Below, piece after piece: positions 30,952 to 39,414 of a DNA stretch of 64,000 bases. Each line of letters begins with the position of its first letter. Position 1 is the stretch's first letter. Made by a program: the position numbers and the translations under genes. The notes under the pieces are model-generated. The model ran no database searches. It saw only the letters and a program-made list of their open reading frames with translations, and was not told the DNA's origin. The stretch lies in assembly GCA_943788815.1 (NCBI GenBank), contig CALSRS010000001.1:620001-684000 (forward strand). The letters are read 5' to 3'. This DNA comes from an uncultured Gammaproteobacteria bacterium (GTDB taxonomy: Bacteria; Pseudomonadota; Gammaproteobacteria; Eutrophobiales; Eutrophobiaceae).

Positions 30952-32429
30952 TGTCCTGCCCCCATAAGCATTTCTGCTGCCTGTTGAGCCACGCCAATCG
31001 TTAAGTCAGTATTAATACCAAAATATATACTGGCACCGATTAATAACCACGTAGGGATCAGAAGCTGTAAGGGGGCTTCTTTTACTACAACTTCACTCGG
31101 TTCGACATTATTAAAATAGGCCGCCTCAACCAGCTTCCACATATAGATAACAGCCAATAAGGAACCAACTAGAACAACGACAGCAATTGGCCAATAACCT
31201 TGCTCCAGGGCGGCCAGTACCAGATACCATTTACTGATAAAACCTACGGTAAGAGGTACACCAATAAGACTTAAACCACCTACTACTATGGCCGCCATAG
31301 TCCATGGCATTATCTGACCCAATCCCTTGAAGTGTTCGATCCGCGCAGCGCCCATATGATAGGCGATACCGCCAAGCGCAAGAAAAAGCCCACCCTTCAT
31401 CAATGCATGATTGAAGAGATGTAATATACCAGAGGTGAGTCCCGTAACTGACGCAAAGCTAATACCTAAAATCATGTATCCAATCTGTGCAACGCTAGAA
31501 TATGCCAGCATGCGCTTTATGTTTTGCTGGAATATTGCCACAGTTGAACCGATTAAAATTGCTGGAATTGCCATTAGCATCAGCACTGTGCCCATAGGCA
31601 TAATCTCAAACGCAAATGTCACGCCAAAAATAGTAAAGACAAAACGCAATAGCACATATATAGCAACTTTTGTGGCTGTTGCAGAGAGAAACGCACTTGC
31701 CGAAGATGGTGCATAGGCATATGAATTAGGCAGCCAAAGATGCAAAGGAAACAGGGCCAGCTTGAGACAAATACCGACTGTCAGAAAAGCAAATGCTGCC
31801 CGTATCGTTCTGGTTTCTAATACCTCAGGGATCCTCTGTGCTAAATCAAGTATATTCAGCGTCCCAGTCATCATATACATCAGACCTATGCCAATCAGTA
31901 TGAATGTCGCGCCCAGCGTACCCATAATCAGATATTGAAATGCAGCAGTCAGCGCGCGCCTATCCTTACCAAGACTCACAAGGGTGTAAGTTGAAAGCGA
32001 TGATATCTCAAGAAACACAAAAATATTAAATGCATCACCAGTAATTACTATCCCGAGTAGCCCAGTAAGGCATAAAAGATAAGCAGAATAAAATAATGTT
32101 TGTTTATGAGGAGCTATCTCATGTTCTATGCTTTTCCCCGCATAAAGCATTACGACTGCACCTATCATAGAGACTATTAATAATACAAAACCACTGATTT
32201 TATCAACGCGATATTCTATACCCCAGGGTGGTGCCCAATCCCCCATTTCATAGGAGATAGGACCTGTATTGATAACTGCTGAAAGCAACTCAATGCTTAT
32301 CCCAAGACTGATCAAACAAATAAACAGGGCAAAAAGCCATACCAGTTTTGGTCTGTGAATAATCAGGCACAATGGCGCCGCAATTAAAGGCAAAACAACT
32401 TGTAATGCCGGCAAATTATCGCTGATCAA
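30948..32429 (-). CDS. mnhD: Mrp-like antiporter subunit D, first paralogue
   Basis: 493-aa NuoN/MnhD-type subunit directly following mnhC, the standard mnhC-mnhD order, so this is the best MnhD candidate. FVFLEISSLSTYTLVSLG holds the TM5 glutamate, KLALFPLHLWLPNSYAYAPS the TM7 lysine, and QNIKRMLAYSSVAQIGY the second-half channel. Four-base overlaps with both neighbours. Role: proton/cation exchange within the Mrp-like complex. Confidence 0.9.
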   Translation of the reverse strand: MISDNLPALQVVLPLIAAPLCLIIHRPKLVWLFALFICLISLGISIELLSAVINTGPISYEMGDWAPPWGIEYRVDKISGFVLLIVSMIGAVVMLYAGKSIEHEIAPHKQTLFYSAYLLCLTGLLGIVITGDAFNIFVFLEISSLSTYTLVSLGKDRRALTAAFQYLIMGTLGATFILIGIGLMYMMTGTLNILDLAQRIPEVLETRTIRAAFAFLTVGICLKLALFPLHLWLPNSYAYAPSSASAFLSATATKVAIYVLLRFVFTIFGVTFAFEIMPMGTVLMLMAIPAILIGSTVAIFQQNIKRMLAYSSVAQIGYMILGISFASVTGLTSGILHLFNHALMKGGLFLALGGIAYHMGAARIEHFKGLGQIMPWTMAAIVVGGLSLIGVPLTVGFISKWYLVLAALEQGYWPIAVVVLVGSLLAVIYMWKLVEAAYFNNVEPSEVVVKEAPLQLLIPTWLLIGASIYFGINTDLTIGVAQQAAEMLMGAGQ

Positions 32430-32782
32430 AACGAACCATCCTGTTTATGAATATCATCTTCTTCTATACTGCCGTAATCTTCATAGATTCTTACTATCAA
32501 GGCCAGGGCGAGTGCCGTGGTAGCGACACCAACCACAATAGCTGTCAGCATTAATACATGGGGCAATGGATTTGAATAAATTTCTATGCCATCAGTCAGA
32601 ATGGGGGCAGCACCATCTTTAACTTTTCCCATACTTACATACAATATAATTACGGATGTTTGAAAAATATTTAAACCAACAACTTTCTTAATCAGGTTGC
32701 CCTGTGCAATAACGATATAAAATCCCGTCATCATCAAGACAATGACTATCCAGTAATTATATAAACCTAAAAATGTATTCAT
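32426..32782 (-). CDS. mnhC: Mrp-like antiporter subunit C (NuoK-like)
   Basis: 118-aa protein with three membrane helices, homologous to NuoK. LNIFQTSVIILYVSMG and DPLPHVLMLTAIVVGVATTALALALIVRIYE-like segments (here SNPLPHVLMLTAIVVG) are diagnostic of MnhC. Overlaps the A'B fusion gene and mnhD by four bases each. It lengthens the quinone-less membrane arm shared by Mrp and complex I. Confidence 0.93.
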   Translation of the reverse strand: MNTFLGLYNYWIVIVLMMTGFYIVIAQGNLIKKVVGLNIFQTSVIILYVSMGKVKDGAAPILTDGIEIYSNPLPHVLMLTAIVVGVATTALALALIVRIYEDYGSIEEDDIHKQDGSF

Positions 32783-33741
32783 TGCTCTTCAATTGAACGA
32801 ATTCGTTTACGATCTGAAAAATCAAAAAATATGGATAACATCACAGATGTGACAGTTATACCAACACCTAATTCAATCAGTAAAATGCCATAATGTTGTC
32901 CATGTACAGGGTCATGAGCGAGAACATTATATCCAAGAAAATTACCACCTAAGAGCATGGTTACTACTCCTACTCCGGCAAAAAGGAGCACACCCGCAGA
33001 CATCAATAGATGAATAACAAAGGGGCTAATCACTTTCTGGGCACTTTCCGTACTAAAGATAATCGCATATAAAATAATTGCCGCAGCAAAAATTACCCCT
33101 GCCTGAAAACCTCCTCCAGGTCCATAGTCCCCATGAAACTGAATATACAAACCATAAAGCAAGATTAAGGGGATTAACGCTTTGGCAATTACTCGTAAAA
33201 TAAGGTGATGTGACATTGAAGGACTCGGTAATGCAATTTCAGGACGCTTACCAAATCGGCCCAGAAGTGACAGCACACCCAGTCCTGCTGCAAAAATAAC
33301 CACCGTTTCTCCAAGTGTATCGAACCCTCTATAACTGCCCAAAACTGATGTTACGATATTTGGTACTCCGATCTCTTCACCTGACTGCTGAATATATCTA
33401 GGCGCCACATGGTGATGAATTGGATCACTTGGATCTGAAAAATATGGCATATCAAGGGTGGCATAAATCAATGCCCCTCCCGTCACAACGACAACCATTA
33501 GTGGCAATGTGGAGCCATGAGAAGATTTTTTTTCTCTTCTGCTGGTTAGAGCAAGGGTCCCTAGCATTAAAACTGTTGAAATACCTGCGCCTACAGCCGC
33601 TTCTGTTAATGCGACATCGACTGCATCAAGATTCACAAAAAAACTGGCAGACACCAGACTGTAAATACCAAATAAAATAACAACGGCAAACAGATCGCGA
33701 ATAAATACAATTGATAATCCAGTAACTACCAATATACCCAT
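32779..33741 (-). CDS. mnhB: MbhD/MbhE/MnhB fusion antiporter subunit
   Basis: 320-aa membrane protein combining three units. About 1-75 is the DUF4040/MbhD helix set (DVALTEAAVGAGISTVLML), about 80-160 an MbhE-like part (NIVTSVLGSYRGFDTLGETVVI), and about 180-310 MnhB (YIQFHGDYGPGGGFQAGVI, ELGVGITVTSVM). In classical Mrp the first two belong to the C-terminus of MnhA, so here that end has been split off and joined to MnhB. It follows mnhG by 19 bp and overlaps mnhC. Confidence 0.9.
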   Translation of the reverse strand: MGILVVTGLSIVFIRDLFAVVILFGIYSLVSASFFVNLDAVDVALTEAAVGAGISTVLMLGTLALTSRREKKSSHGSTLPLMVVVVTGGALIYATLDMPYFSDPSDPIHHHVAPRYIQQSGEEIGVPNIVTSVLGSYRGFDTLGETVVIFAAGLGVLSLLGRFGKRPEIALPSPSMSHHLILRVIAKALIPLILLYGLYIQFHGDYGPGGGFQAGVIFAAAIILYAIIFSTESAQKVISPFVIHLLMSAGVLLFAGVGVVTMLLGGNFLGYNVLAHDPVHGQHYGILLIELGVGITVTSVMLSIFFDFSDRKRIRSIEEQ

Positions 33742-33760
33742 TAAAACGATGTCGATTATA

Positions 33761-34087
33761 TTAACTATTTTGATTCTCCTTATCTTTCAAAAATGGTTTT
33801 AACCCACTATGTAAGGCAGATTTTGCTAGAGAATGTGCCGAAGTTGGACTGGTATAAGCTATGATTAACAACACCAATAATAATTTAATGATCATCATTA
33901 ATGAATTTGCCTGCAGCATAAGACCTATGATTATCAGGAAAGTACTTAATGTATCCGTCACACTGGCGGCATGTAACCTGGTAAAAAAATCGGGAAATCT
34001 GAACAGACCTACTGCACCCGTTATTCCCAGAAAACCTCCTGCCAACAAACATATCCAGCTGAGCACGTTCAAAAAGATATCCATCAC
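33761..34087 (-). CDS. mnhG: Mrp-like antiporter subunit G
   Basis: 108-aa protein with three membrane helices. ICLLAGGFLGITGAVGLFRFPDFFTRLHAASVTDTLS is the strongly conserved MnhG signature. C-terminal tail KPFLKDKENQNS is polar. Overlaps mnhF by four bases. A structural subunit required for assembly of Mrp complexes in studied organisms. Confidence 0.94.
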   Translation of the reverse strand: MMDIFLNVLSWICLLAGGFLGITGAVGLFRFPDFFTRLHAASVTDTLSTFLIIIGLMLQANSLMMIIKLLLVLLIIAYTSPTSAHSLAKSALHSGLKPFLKDKENQNS

Positions 34088-34368
34088 TGCTGCTCCACGT
34101 CTGCTTGCTGTTCCTTGTTGTATTCAAAAAATCGCAACACAGCAATCACACTAATAAAATTTATCAGTGCATAGACCAGGGCAATATCTACCATGTCACC
34201 GCGTCCTGCGGTAACACTCAATACCGATAGCAATAGCACCGTTTTGGTTCCCACGACATTAACTGCAAGTATCCGATCATAAAGTGTCGGACCAAGAATA
34301 GCCCTGATGAGAGCGATGATCATCACAACGAGAATACTGATAGAAATTATGGTAAACATTACAATCAT
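34084..34368 (-). CDS. mnhF: Mrp-like antiporter subunit F
   Basis: 94-aa protein, three membrane helices. RAILGPTLYDRILAVNVVGTKTVLLL is the MnhF signature with its conserved Asp-Arg. Four-base overlaps with mnhE upstream and mnhG downstream indicate coupled translation. In other Mrp systems MnhF may also help export anions such as bile acids; no evidence here. Confidence 0.94.
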   Translation of the reverse strand: MIVMFTIISISILVVMIIALIRAILGPTLYDRILAVNVVGTKTVLLLSVLSVTAGRGDMVDIALVYALINFISVIAVLRFFEYNKEQQADVEQQ

Positions 34369-34838
34369 CTCTCCAGTTTGCTTACCCGTTTGTCCATTTC
34401 ACCGGTCAAAACACCTTCTTTTCCTTCTTCACTTAAGGCATGAACCTCAAAGGTATCACCATCTATATCAAGGGTAATTGTTCCTGGCGTCATCGTAATT
34501 GAATTCGCGTAGAGCACACGACAAACGTCACTTTTCTGAGACGCCTTCACTTTAAATACCGTCGGACTGATTGCGGCTTCTCCCTTCCATACCCTGGTAA
34601 CAACATCAAGATTGGATTTGATAATTTCAACGAGCAACCAGAATAAATAAAACGGCAAATGAATACTCATTACGATAGAGGGTTCAACCTCGCCATCAAC
34701 GTGTTCCATACGTCTACTAAGATAGAGGATGAGTCCAATAGAGATTGCACCTAGCCCAAGTAACAGGGGCGTATAATGACCTGAGTTGACCAACCAGAAG
34801 ACCGCGAGTATCACTGTTAGACTTAATAATTGTTTCAA
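34365..34838 (-). CDS. mnhE: Mrp-like antiporter subunit E
   Basis: 157-aa subunit, two or three N-terminal helices and a cytoplasmic domain with ANSITMTPGTITLDIDGDTFEVHAL, the MnhE signature. First gene of the antiporter operon. Start is TTG at 34838, decided by a strong AAGGA seven bases upstream. The divergent SCO1 gene begins 190 bp away. Confidence 0.92.
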   Translation of the reverse strand: MKQLLSLTVILAVFWLVNSGHYTPLLLGLGAISIGLILYLSRRMEHVDGEVEPSIVMSIHLPFYLFWLLVEIIKSNLDVVTRVWKGEAAISPTVFKVKASQKSDVCRVLYANSITMTPGTITLDIDGDTFEVHALSEEGKEGVLTGEMDKRVSKLER

Positions 34839-34887: not shown

Positions 34888-35028
34888 ATATATTTACTCA
34901 TGCTCCCAGTCACTAAACGTAGAAATTTCATGATTTTCGACAGTTTAATACTTGACATTATTATATAGAACGTGCTCCCACTCATAAATAATGAATACTT
35001 GGTATTCGACATCTGTATAATTTCAAAT

Positions 35029-35676
35029 ATGATAAAAAAACGTACTTTAAAAAGTCTATTATTGTTTGCTGGATTGTTATTCATAGGCGCTGCCATCGGA
35101 CTTTTCACGTCTCGTTTTTATTCCACAGCAGATGCCCCACCTGAAATTAGTCGCCTGTTGTGGCCTAATCCAAAGAACATCGCTGACTTTTCGATGATAG
35201 ATCAAGATGGTGACCGCTTCGGAGTTCAAAACCTTAATGACAAATGGTCTTTTCTTTTTTTTGGCTACACCTATTGTCCCGATGTATGCCCAATAACATT
35301 AACTGTCCTGGACCAATTTTATAGTGGGATAACACGTGCTGAAGATAGAGAACAAGTGCAGGTAATATTTGTGACTATAGACCCAGAACGAGACACGACG
35401 TCACGTTTAAAAGAATATCTGGATTTCTTTGAGCCGGAATTTATTGGACTAGGCGGCTCTATCGAGCAAGTGAATTCTCTCACCGAACAAATCGGGATAA
35501 CGTATTTACATCATCTACCTCAGGCTGATGATAATTATCTCGTCGATCACACAAGTTCTGTCTTTTTGCTGGATCCTCAGGCGCGGCTTGTATCCATTTT
35601 TTCTGCACCACACACTACAGATGAATTTGCGTCTAGATTCACTGATATCCGTGATTTTTTGTCTAATTATCAGTGA
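35029..35676 (+). CDS. SCO1/SenC copper chaperone
   Basis: 215-aa membrane-anchored periplasmic thioredoxin-fold protein for assembly of the CuA centre of cytochrome c oxidase. TM anchor about 8-28, copper ligands in YTYCPDVCP and the distal His in LVDHTSSVF, plus FVTIDPERDT. ATG 35029 starts just before the anchor; an upstream in-frame ATG at 34972 would add 19 unlikely residues. Its stop overlaps the GTG start of the PCuAC-PSD fusion gene, a classic Sco-PCuAC pairing. Confidence 0.93.
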   Translation: MIKKRTLKSLLLFAGLLFIGAAIGLFTSRFYSTADAPPEISRLLWPNPKNIADFSMIDQDGDRFGVQNLNDKWSFLFFGYTYCPDVCPITLTVLDQFYSGITRAEDREQVQVIFVTIDPERDTTSRLKEYLDFFEPEFIGLGGSIEQVNSLTEQIGITYLHHLPQADDNYLVDHTSSVFLLDPQARLVSIFSAPHTTDEFASRFTDIRDFLSNYQ

Positions 35677-37019
35677 ATAAGTTTGTTTTTGTATTTCTGG
35701 TTTTAATCAATCATGCATCATATGCTGATAAGCATATTGTAATATCGGCCCCATCGATAGCATTAGCACCAGCTTCCTCAACTACGTATGCTGCTTATCT
35801 AACGATTTATAATCAAACTAGCGATGATATTTCATTACGGCGTATTGAAAGTACTGATTTTCAAAAAATTGAGATCCATCAAACAGAAATAATTGAAGAT
35901 CTGTCTCAAATGCGTCATTTAGATGAAATTACTATCCCAGCAAATCAACAAGTCTCTCTTGAACCCGGTGGTTTACATTTAATGCTGCATAATGCCACTA
36001 TCCCATTGGTACTGGGTGAACAGAGACAATTGATATTTCATTTTTCAGATGGAACACAACGTACCGAAATATTCACAGTAAATAATCTAACTGATATCAT
36101 TTCACAAAACAGTATAAAAACTCCTGATGAGCCACAGACGAACTATATGAGATCCTTAAAAGTATTTTTACAACGTTTTCTTCCTCAACATACCCTTTCT
36201 GGATTAATGTATGAAATTGCTCGCGTCAAATGGGAGCCCCTTAAGAACATTTTAATCAGCAAGTTTATTGACCTCTATAAAGTTGATATGTCTATTGCAA
36301 AAAATCCGGATCCAAAATCATATGCTGACTTCAACTCTTTTTTTACGAGGGAATTAAAAACGGCTTCGCGTCCTATAGATAATACAAAGAACGTCATTGT
36401 TTCGCCAGTTGATGGAGCAATCAGTCAGTTTGGAAAAATTCAAGATGATTTGCTGATACAGGCAAAAGGAAAAAACTATTCTGTTAGCACATTATTAGGC
36501 GACAAGGCAGAAGTTGCCGATCAATTTAAAAATGGATCATTTATCACAATATATCTGTCACCAAAGGACTACCATCGTATTCATATGCCATTAGATGGAC
36601 AATTAAACAGCATGACCTACATTCCCGGGAAATTATATTCCGTCAACAAAGCGACAACGGATCAGGTAGATAACTTGTTTGCCATTAATGAACGTATTGT
36701 TAATGTATTTGATACAGACATTGGATCTGTCGCGCTGGTAATGGTTGGGGCAATTTTTGTTGGTGGCATGGAAACGACCTGGGAGGGAGAAGTAACTCCA
36801 GCATCAAATCGTCGAGGATTATCACGAAACTATGACACGCAACAAATCAATATTAGTAAAGGCGAAGAGATGGGTCGATTTAATATGGGCTCGACAGTTA
36901 TTGTGTTGTTTGAACCTGATAAAATTATATTTGAAGCAGATATTACAACGGATACTAAAGTGGTGATGGGCCAGAAGATTGCGAATAATACAAATAATTC
37001 AGTCAATACTAATAACTAA
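35673..37019 (+). CDS. Fusion of PCuAC copper chaperone and phosphatidylserine decarboxylase
   Basis: 448 aa, GTG start overlapping the SCO1 stop. Residues 1-18 are a signal peptide. About 20-138 is a PCuAC domain with a perfect H-X10-M-X21-H-X-M copper motif (His69, Met80, His102, Met104). After a short polar linker, 159-438 is a whole type I phosphatidylserine decarboxylase: MRSLKVFLQRFLPQH start, SPVDGAI (Asp247), YHRIHMP (His304) and the self-cleavage site MGST (Ser407; LGST is usual). PSD normally works at the cytoplasmic membrane face, so export would misplace it. Met159 (36147) could be a separate internal start, with no clear ribosome binding site. No stop codon or frameshift separates the halves. 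Convergent 11-bp overlap with the next gene. Confidence 0.9.
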   Translation: MNKFVFVFLVLINHASYADKHIVISAPSIALAPASSTTYAAYLTIYNQTSDDISLRRIESTDFQKIEIHQTEIIEDLSQMRHLDEITIPANQQVSLEPGGLHLMLHNATIPLVLGEQRQLIFHFSDGTQRTEIFTVNNLTDIISQNSIKTPDEPQTNYMRSLKVFLQRFLPQHTLSGLMYEIARVKWEPLKNILISKFIDLYKVDMSIAKNPDPKSYADFNSFFTRELKTASRPIDNTKNVIVSPVDGAISQFGKIQDDLLIQAKGKNYSVSTLLGDKAEVADQFKNGSFITIYLSPKDYHRIHMPLDGQLNSMTYIPGKLYSVNKATTDQVDNLFAINERIVNVFDTDIGSVALVMVGAIFVGGMETTWEGEVTPASNRRGLSRNYDTQQINISKGEEMGRFNMGSTVIVLFEPDKIIFEADITTDTKVVMGQKIANNTNNSVNTNN

Positions 37020-39414
37020 TAACACCATCTTTACGATATTGCTCCATCTGCTGCTCATTCAATCCAAGCAAATCACCGTAGATATAGTCATTATCACCAC
37101 CAAATAAGGGCGCAGTATTATAGATATCTCCCGGCGTCTCACTTAAATCAAAGGGTGGAAAATTACAGGCCAGCAAGCCGATTTCACGATGACGTCGCCA
37201 GCGCCAGGTCTCCAATTCACAAAGCTGCGGATCACTAAAAACATCGGCAACCGTATTAACTGGATAGGAGCAAATACCCTGCGACTGCAATTGTGTGGCA
37301 ACACCTAGCGCCGCCTCGGCCATGGTCCACTGACTTATTATACGATTCAATTCCACTTCATTTTCACGGCGATGTACCGCGGTATCAAAACGTTCATCTG
37401 TTAGAATATTTTTATTACTCATGATTTTTGCAAGGCGAGAAAATTCTTCATCAGACCAGCATGACAATGTCACCCATTGATCATCTATACATGGATAAGC
37501 ACCATGAGGCGCAGCAACAGCATCAGAATTCATATTTCTATCTGCGATGTTGCCATTTTCATTATAGTCAAATAAGGCACCTGCCAGAAACTGAAGGCCA
37601 GTCTCATACTGCGATAAATCGATATGCCCTCCCTGCCCCGTACGTCTACTTTTATCCAGTGCTGCCAAAACGGCAGAGGCACCATAATTGGCTGCGATAA
37701 AGTCTATATATGGGCCATATAACAACATGGGAGGGCCATCACTTGCACCGGTCAAACCACAAAATCCCGATAGCGCAGATAATTGTGAACCAAATCCCGG
37801 GGTCATAGCACGAGGGCCAGTTTGTCCCATATTACAGGTGGAAAGCATCACTAATGCCGGGTTTTGTTTAACTAGCGTTTCGTACCCCAGCCCGATTCGT
37901 GAGATGACACCAGGTCGCATATTTTCAATAATAATATCTGACCATTTAGTCAATTTTAACGCCAGGTCGATTCCACCAGGTTTTTTCACATCCAGAGTAA
38001 TGGAGTGTTTAGAATCGTTGAAGATCGCGAAGCATCCCCCTCGGTTGAGGCCTGGCTTACCATCCTTAAACGGTGGGTATTCGAGCCTGAAACCATCAGG
38101 TCGGCTTGGTGCTTCAACATGCACCACGGTTGCGCCAAAGTTTGCTAAAATTTTCCCTATCTGAGGACCGGCTGCATATCCACCAAATTCCAGAACCTTG
38201 ACACCATCTAAGGCACGTGGAGTTGAAAAATACTGTTTAGTCGTTGTAATACTTACATAAGGTTTTTCATCAATCTTTATGGCATTCAGTTTTTCAAGAA
38301 TTTGAACAGACTCATCTTTTTGTCCATCATGACGAATACCCGGGCGCTCACCATTTAATAAATAAAATACACCGCAATGCTTTTCGGCGTCTCCTTTATC
38401 TCTGCTCACATCAGACCAGAAATCCCGATCTATCAGTTGAGGATCTTTACTGATGTCGGCCACATTGAATACCGGGTAACCCAATATCTCTCGCCGACTG
38501 CCCTCTTCCAGAAATTCATCCTTGGTCAAGCTCATAAAAAATCGGGCGATAGGCTCTTCCATGGCATCAATTTCACTTTGAGTTGCCTGTACCTGGGTAA
38601 ATGTATCCCAGTCAATATCTTTGAGCACACCAGGATCTGCTCCGCAGGTCTGCATCCAGTCTAGCAGTTGTCTATTGGTGCGTTTTCCAGCTGAGCCACC
38701 ATAAATAATAAAGTTTAGATATCCGTCTTTACATGGCCAGAAGGCACGCAGCTTCGCGCCGGTCACAGAACGTCCAACTGCAAATGACCCAGCACGGGTA
38801 GGAATTTGGTTCAACATGTCCCAGTACATCGGCGCAAATGCCAAGGCTGGTATTAAACTGGCCTGGGCAGATACATGGACCTCCTGTCCTTTCTTTGTCA
38901 CATACCGAGCATTTAATGCGGTCAGTGCGCCCACAGCAGCTTGAACACCAGTCCAGGAATATGATTGGGGGACGGTAATACGAACCGGAGTGGAATCCGG
39001 TTCACCCGCAAGAGACATAGCACCACCTGCAGCCATTAGCTCAATATCTGAGGCCCGCCAATTTGCCCTGGGACCGCTTGCGCCAAAGGGGGTAATACTG
39101 ACCAGAATGACGCCGGCATTTATTTTGGATAGTCTGGAATAGTGTAAAAGATCGTCTACACCATCATCTTGTTTACAGGACAAAACGATATCGGCACTTT
39201 GAACCAGCTGATCAAGTTTTTTACGGCCATTTGAGCTTTCTATATCAACAAGACACAGACGTTTATTGACATTAAAGGCGCGCCAATCTGACGTATCTCT
39301 ATTTGATGTCGGAGGTTCAATCTTGATGACTTCGGCACCGAGATCAGCCAGCACTCGTCCGCATAACCAACCAGTCTGGTCAGTGCAATCGATGACGATG
39401 CAATCAGACAGCAT
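37009..39414 (-). CDS. Tandem CaiB/BaiF family CoA-transferase
   Basis: 801-aa family III CoA-transferase made of two CaiB/BaiF units (about 1-380 and 400-801), twice normal length. Both begin with the CoA-binding fold (GRVLADLGAEVIKIE; GKILANFGATVVHVE). In the second unit Glu604 (GGHIDLSQYE) stands where formyl-CoA transferase has its catalytic Asp169. In the first unit this position is Ala185 (VHVSAQA), so that half looks inactive. Substrate unknown. It lies 36 bp after the UbiD-like gene and is probably cotranscribed. Alternative: a non-transferase CoA-binding enzyme. Confidence 0.9.
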   Translation of the reverse strand: MLSDCIVIDCTDQTGWLCGRVLADLGAEVIKIEPPTSNRDTSDWRAFNVNKRLCLVDIESSNGRKKLDQLVQSADIVLSCKQDDGVDDLLHYSRLSKINAGVILVSITPFGASGPRANWRASDIELMAAGGAMSLAGEPDSTPVRITVPQSYSWTGVQAAVGALTALNARYVTKKGQEVHVSAQASLIPALAFAPMYWDMLNQIPTRAGSFAVGRSVTGAKLRAFWPCKDGYLNFIIYGGSAGKRTNRQLLDWMQTCGADPGVLKDIDWDTFTQVQATQSEIDAMEEPIARFFMSLTKDEFLEEGSRREILGYPVFNVADISKDPQLIDRDFWSDVSRDKGDAEKHCGVFYLLNGERPGIRHDGQKDESVQILEKLNAIKIDEKPYVSITTTKQYFSTPRALDGVKVLEFGGYAAGPQIGKILANFGATVVHVEAPSRPDGFRLEYPPFKDGKPGLNRGGCFAIFNDSKHSITLDVKKPGGIDLALKLTKWSDIIIENMRPGVISRIGLGYETLVKQNPALVMLSTCNMGQTGPRAMTPGFGSQLSALSGFCGLTGASDGPPMLLYGPYIDFIAANYGASAVLAALDKSRRTGQGGHIDLSQYETGLQFLAGALFDYNENGNIADRNMNSDAVAAPHGAYPCIDDQWVTLSCWSDEEFSRLAKIMSNKNILTDERFDTAVHRRENEVELNRIISQWTMAEAALGVATQLQSQGICSYPVNTVADVFSDPQLCELETWRWRRHREIGLLACNFPPFDLSETPGDIYNTAPLFGGDNDYIYGDLLGLNEQQMEQYRKDGVISY

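Follow-up and report, generated by a model that had tools for sequence, protein, structure and literature searches.

A PCuAC copper chaperone fused to phosphatidylserine decarboxylase in a gammaproteobacterial genus, with a possibly periplasm-facing lipid enzyme

Results

The locus and the fusion gene

The window, i.e. the whole stretch of 64,000 nucleotides analysed, belongs to a genome of 3.2 Mb in three contigs and carries a gene that joins a periplasmic copper chaperone (PCuAC) to phosphatidylserine decarboxylase (PSD) (Table 1). The gene is one uninterrupted frame from a GTG at 35673 to the TAA at 37019, with no stop codon inside, and the TGA stop of the upstream sco gene overlaps its GTG; the true start of sco is probably internal, around 35029 as placed by eye. 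Profile matches recovered both halves: Pfam PF04314 (PCuAC) at residues 25-129 (E 1.9e-24, 86.1 bits for a cut-off of 29.4), Pfam PF02666 (PS decarboxylase) at residues 220-437 (E 9.2e-67, 225 bits for a cut-off of 22) and NCBIfam TIGR00163 at residues 206-439 (257.4 bits for a cut-off of 111.75). On the minus strand, a gene run beside the sco-fusion pair (32426-34838) appears by eye to encode Mrp-type cation antiporter subunits, and a convergent CoA-transferase III gene (37009-39414) overlaps the fusion gene by 11 bases (37009-37019).

Table 1 Features of the fusion locus (positions in the window)
Feature	Position	Strand	Details
sco (SCO1/SenC), upstream of the fusion	34972..35676	+	PF02630, E 5.5e-39
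PCuAC-PSD fusion gene	35673..37019	+	448 aa; PF04314, PF02666 and TIGR00163 matches
Signal-peptide-like N-terminus, residues 1 to ~19	35673..35729	+	hydrophobic core FVFVFLVLIN; cleavage site inferred by eye
PCuAC copper-chaperone domain, residues 25-129	35745..36059	+	PF04314; ligands H69, M80, H102, M104
Linker, residues 130-157	36060..36143	+	model and alignment
Three N-terminal PSD helices, residues 158-202	36144..36278	+	model; counterpart of E. coli PSD membrane-binding helices
In-frame ATG (Met159)	36147..36149	+	weak ribosome-binding-like site, -1.9 kcal/mol
PSD catalytic domain, residues 206-439	36288..36989	+	TIGR00163 and PDB alignment; D247, D299, H301, H304
G406-S407-T408, self-cleavage/pyruvoyl site	36888..36896	+	motif and alignment

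The copper-binding motif H-x10-M-x21-H-x-M is exact in the window fusion, as the first-pass annotation had stated in calling the PCuAC part complete, and it is exact in all five fused proteins of our comparison (see below). The hydrophobic N-terminus, previously described as a signal peptide, does look like one by eye, and all five fused proteins begin with such a segment as judged from sequence. Alignment to the solved E. coli PSD covers fusion residues 156-406. Counted along it, D247, D299, H301, H304 and G406 correspond to E. coli D90, D142, H144, H147 and G253, and S407-T408 to S254-T255 by continuation, the solved E. coli chain ending at G253. PMC7952604 treats these E. coli residues as the self-cleavage machinery, with H144 as its main histidine. 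All are kept in the window fusion. The earlier reading had singled out Asp247, His304 and the GST site, and these are indeed present, but the counterpart of the main histidine is H301, His304 being that of H147. In the same alignment, E. coli PSD begins one residue away from Met159.

Structure model

The fusion was modelled with AlphaFold2 from an alignment of 39 rows; separate PCuAC proteins were left out because in a joint alignment they spread into the PSD part. Mean pLDDT was 89.6, with both the PCuAC and the PSD parts confident and values below 50 at residues 13-19, 147-153 and 446-448. A strand (129-137) extends into the linker, and three helices open the PSD part (158-167, 172-183 and 188-202), which in the model appear to be the equivalents of those by which E. 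coli PSD binds the membrane. Foldseek matched E. coli PSD 7cnx to the PSD part at TMt 0.94, and 3zja to the PCuAC part at TMt 0.91.

With E. coli Psd (6l06, 7cnw, 7cnx), the fusion shares the whole fold, the three helices, the Asp/His residues and the GST site, at 45-46% identity in the structural matches; it differs in its N-terminal copper-chaperone domain, its signal-like start, its lack of cysteines and possibly the membrane face that it occupies. It resembles PCu(A)C chaperones (2k6w, 3zja) in fold, exact motif and sco neighbour, but here the chaperone forms part of a lipid enzyme, whereas each of the 59 other pcuAC genes read next to psd is a gene of its own. The PCuAC domains of PmoF1 and PmoF2 (6p1g, 6p1e), compared at the level of PDB-listed domains only, have the same fold.

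Distribution and origin of the fusion

Four of the five genus genomes compared carry the gene (the window genome G000, plus G001, G002 and G004), and in all four it is fused in one frame, the three other proteins being 46-59% identical to that of the window. The fifth, G003, gave no match for Sco, PCuAC or PSD, which is either an assembly gap or a loss. An assembly or sequencing error, i.e. a missed stop codon or frameshift, is refuted for the genus, because the same single-frame architecture recurs in three other genus genomes, with junction sequences that differ among the four; nothing in the genus speaks for such an error, to which only a second case outside it (L002), resting on one metagenome-assembled genome (MAG), would be open. 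The claim that one gene fuses PCuAC to PSD is therefore confirmed by frame, profiles and relatives, and the fusion is real and intact. The suggestion of a recent stop-codon loss is not borne out, since the stop had already gone before the genus members, at 46-59% identity to the window protein, diverged.

We compared 141 loci with a PSD, i.e. 59 in which pcuAC is adjacent but separate (52 distinct PSDs), 74 without a pcuAC neighbour (73 distinct) and 8 fused (5 distinct). Among the loci of relatives (L085-L113, n = 29), 3 were fused, 22 had separate neighbours and 4 had psd alone. Had relatives always kept the two genes apart, the fusion would have been in doubt: this holds outside the genus for the 59 adjacent pairs, with one fused exception, L002, and fails within it (4/4 carriers fused). 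L002, an unrelated MAG contig, was the only other fusion among the loci read; G034 and G055 looked fused by their open-frame figures and turned out to have separate genes when their loci were read. In the 52 distinct adjacent cases, the PSD domain starts a median 39 nt past the stop codon of pcuAC. The sco gene lies upstream in 5/5 fused and 52/59 adjacent loci (repeats included), vs 7 of the 70 sufficiently long loci in which psd has no pcuAC neighbour.

A class survey covered 274 gammaproteobacterial genomes, 236 of them with a match. Among the matches listed (E up to 1e-30), nine spanned both halves with stops inside, and only that of the window genome did so without stops. Further fusions may exist, because the survey gives only matches at E up to 1e-30, of which there are at least as many as those listed. 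A scan of genome contigs kept the best 80 of at least 589 matches.

A maximum likelihood PSD tree was inferred from 72 rows (the 57 distinct fused or adjacent PSDs and the first 15 of 72 without pcuAC). The four genus fusions form one clade (support 100/99), and the sister of L002 is an unfused Ectothiorhodospiraceae MAG (support 98/95), so that the tree requires two fusion origins, one for the genus clade and one for L002. By these placements, the fusion is old within the genus and arose at least twice, the L002 origin resting on one assembly.

Other PSD genes in the genus

All five genus genomes (5/5) encode pssA. In G000, G001, G002 and also G013, a short PSD-like gene lies between pssA and an ilvC-like gene (named by eye); in the window genome it is located outside the window, at C3:180485-181132 (L117:2986-3633). 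Its product lacks the pyruvoyl-forming serine, the cleavage site reading FSG in G000, FAG in G001 and FSG in G002; the shifted serine of FSG presumably cannot serve. The same serine is missing in 22 of 23 short copies (L133, L134 and L137-L156 included), 13 of which read FGG, only the class relative G050 having FGS, and the rest of the protein is conserved. From its sequence, the short protein looks like a PSD pseudoenzyme, and it is perhaps a partner of PssA; no paper in the open-licence literature carried both 'phosphatidylserine decarboxylase' and 'pseudoenzyme'.

The short gene is missing in G003 (L132) and G004 (L131), where the ilvC-like gene adjoins pssA. G004, rated 100% complete, gave no PSD match beyond the fusion, and no PSD of any kind was found in G003, yet it keeps pssA. 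The fused PSD thus appears to be the sole competent PSD in these genus genomes, because the short gene either lacks the cleavage serine (G000, G001, G002) or is absent (G004). A redundant second PSD that would free the fusion from its lipid role was considered and rejected, the second gene being serine-less in G000, G001 and G002 and none being found in G003 and G004.

Cysteine content and net charge

The PSD domain is devoid of cysteine in 4/5 fused proteins vs 10/124 distinct unfused ones (3/52 adjacent and 7/72 without a pcuAC neighbour), after removal of duplicates and of one row with unknown residues. Fisher's test gives p = 4e-4, a value that ignores kinship, the pattern amounting to two evolutionary events. 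In 34 separate relatives, the commonest cysteine positions are 344, 185 and 244 (14, 13 and 10 rows, respectively), all of them non-cysteine in the five fused proteins. L002 has one PSD cysteine vs three in its sister. PSD cysteines are likewise missing from L105 and L126, members of the family in which the genes are not fused. A low cysteine content fits export to the oxidising periplasm, with the sister of the genus clade ambiguous in the tree. Net charge, considered as another sign of relocation, gave no clear signal and did not separate the fused proteins (mean 0.6, vs 4.2 for adjacent PSDs and 0.9 for those without pcuAC).

Discussion

A possibly exported decarboxylase

The compartment paradox raised by the first-pass annotation, a periplasmic PCuAC joined to an enzyme of the cytoplasmic side, is a genuine one. 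The reading that we favour, to which we give about an even chance, is that of one exported protein whose PSD acts on the periplasmic face of the inner membrane. An ancestral sco-pcuAC-psd cluster would have lost the pcuAC stop before the genus diversified, which the comparison of loci and the tree support, leaving one frame. Translation would begin at the GTG overlapping the sco stop, and a ribosome starting at pcuAC makes a chain that carries the signal-like segment ahead of PSD; the PCuAC signal peptide would then take the whole chain through Sec. Self-cleavage between G406 and S407 would yield an N-terminal product made of PCuAC and the PSD beta chain, with a calculated mass of about 43.5 kDa if the signal peptide is removed after residue 19, and an alpha chain of about 4.6 kDa. 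The PSD, its three N-terminal helices lying against the inner membrane from the periplasmic side, would decarboxylate phosphatidylserine there, while the tethered PCuAC, together with Sco, would help to supply cytochrome oxidase with copper on that side. Since no other competent PSD was found in the genus genomes, the phosphatidylethanolamine that the cell makes by decarboxylation would come from the fusion.

Several observations are in keeping with this reading, among them the fused state in all four carriers, the signal-like N-termini, the low cysteine content, the sco neighbour and the apparent lack of another competent PSD. Both active sites are intact by their residues, both domains are modelled confidently, and profile matches reveal COX2-domain proteins (PF00116), CuA ligands aside, in 5/5 genus genomes. 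According to PMC7952604, E. coli PSD is monotopic, bound to one membrane face via three amphipathic helices, so that nothing in the fold forces one side. Against export, the same paper places the action of E. coli PSD on the cytoplasmic side, and phosphatidylserine would need to reach the outer leaflet. Conservation of the frame adds modest evidence for selection only: in a simple neutral simulation with 2-3 hits per site, a fraction of about 0.2 of the single lineages kept an open linker.

Mitochondrial Psd1 has a membrane anchor of its own and no known copper domain. Like the fusion, it is a PSD of the inner membrane; it is an integral protein that faces the intermembrane space (PMC13425903), the equivalent of the periplasm, and the exported PSD would face the same way. 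More tentatively, and below an even chance, the genus may have moved its only PSD to the periplasmic face by means of an exported chaperone, making phosphatidylethanolamine on the outer leaflet as mitochondria do and tying it to cytochrome oxidase assembly. In mitochondria, inner-membrane phosphatidylethanolamine is essential for cytochrome bc1 function (PMC6441012). If the fused PSD does act outside, bacteria would provide a natural instance of phosphatidylethanolamine being made in the periplasmic leaflet, which would require phosphatidylserine to move outward and would offer a bacterial parallel to the PSD of the intermembrane space.

Two products from one mRNA, and other alternatives

A serious alternative, somewhat less likely than the favoured reading, is that one mRNA gives two products, an exported full-length PCuAC-PSD and a cytoplasmic PSD (beta chain about 28 kDa by calculation) translated from a start at the junction, the latter doing the lipid work and the fused tail being tolerated or minor. 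Such an internal start would solve the compartment problem. Start-like codons were scored by upstream pairing with the anti-Shine-Dalgarno sequence, and in 3/4 genus genes an in-frame start at the junction is preceded by a strong ribosome-binding-like site (ATG of G002, -7.5; GTG of G001 and G004, -7.2), stronger than at any other in-frame start-like codon scored elsewhere in the same gene (28, 30 and 25 codons in G002, G001 and G004, the strongest at -6.5, -5.8 and -5.3, respectively); for separate psd genes, the best candidate start has a median of -2.4 and goes down to -6.6. The ATG of Met159, close to the E. coli start as noted above, is found in G002 too. However, the Met159 site of the window is weak (see Table 1), the strongest of 19 elsewhere in the window gene reaching -5.8, and the junction of L002 scores -0.5. 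G001 and G004 have no junction ATG and their GTG would leave a His-rich tail; as these two are close kin, the strong sites count as independent only twice, and they were selected post hoc. In L002, chance alone brings codons elsewhere in the gene to -10.8, and the purine-rich codons of EVRK can mimic a ribosome-binding site. Moreover, initiation at pcuAC would go on yielding the fused protein, and the cysteine pattern would be left unexplained. The earlier proposal of Met159 as an internal start is a rival, no more: the ATG is common to G002, but its site in the window is weak, and G001 and G004 have a strong in-frame GTG in its place. By these pairing scores, an additional PSD made in the cytoplasm is plausible for the relatives and has less support in the window itself. 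Synonymous conservation at the internal site was uninformative between G001 and G004, with 6/34 identical-residue codons differing in the linker vs 15/112 and 48/254 in the two domains. Should an internal start supply the PSD, the gene would clearly exemplify a single fused frame whose two products reside in different places.

It is improbable that the fusion is exported and its linker then cut by a periplasmic protease, PCuAC and PSD acting as separate periplasmic proteins: the linker does vary among fused proteins and is of low confidence in the model at 147-153, but its length is near-constant in the genus (36-37 residues by eye, measured from V136 to H173 or the equivalent positions). Very unlikely, too, is a protein that stays cytoplasmic with PCuAC as a non-exported remnant and PSD working as usual; the PSD part looks normal, but none of the five fused proteins has lost its hydrophobic N-terminus or any of the four copper ligands.

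Relation to separate gene clusters and to published work

On the architecture, which the first reading regarded as undescribed, a search of the open-licence literature, which leaves subscription papers mostly outside, gave no paper that names both 'PCuAC' and 'phosphatidylserine decarboxylase'. The looser name 'PCu' with phosphatidylserine decarboxylase brought up no bacterial paper by title, 'copper chaperone', or 'periplasm' with 'outer leaflet', none on this architecture by title and opening of the abstract, and protein fusions and signal peptides no title on it among the matches listed.

A close comparison is offered by the separate sco-pcuAC-psd clusters, e.g. that of Thiohalophilus thiocyanatoxydans (L011), which have the same genes, order and strand as the locus studied here, except that pcuAC and psd are two genes there and one here. 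These relatives show the likely ancestral state, so that topology before and after the fusion can be compared directly. The cluster is recurrent among gammaproteobacteria (L011, L003-L016 and others, including T. thiocyanatoxydans DSM 16326), a linkage which suggests that copper delivery and phosphatidylethanolamine synthesis are co-expressed in many of them. A His-rich tail immediately ahead of psd is common at the end of pcuAC in the adjacent loci.
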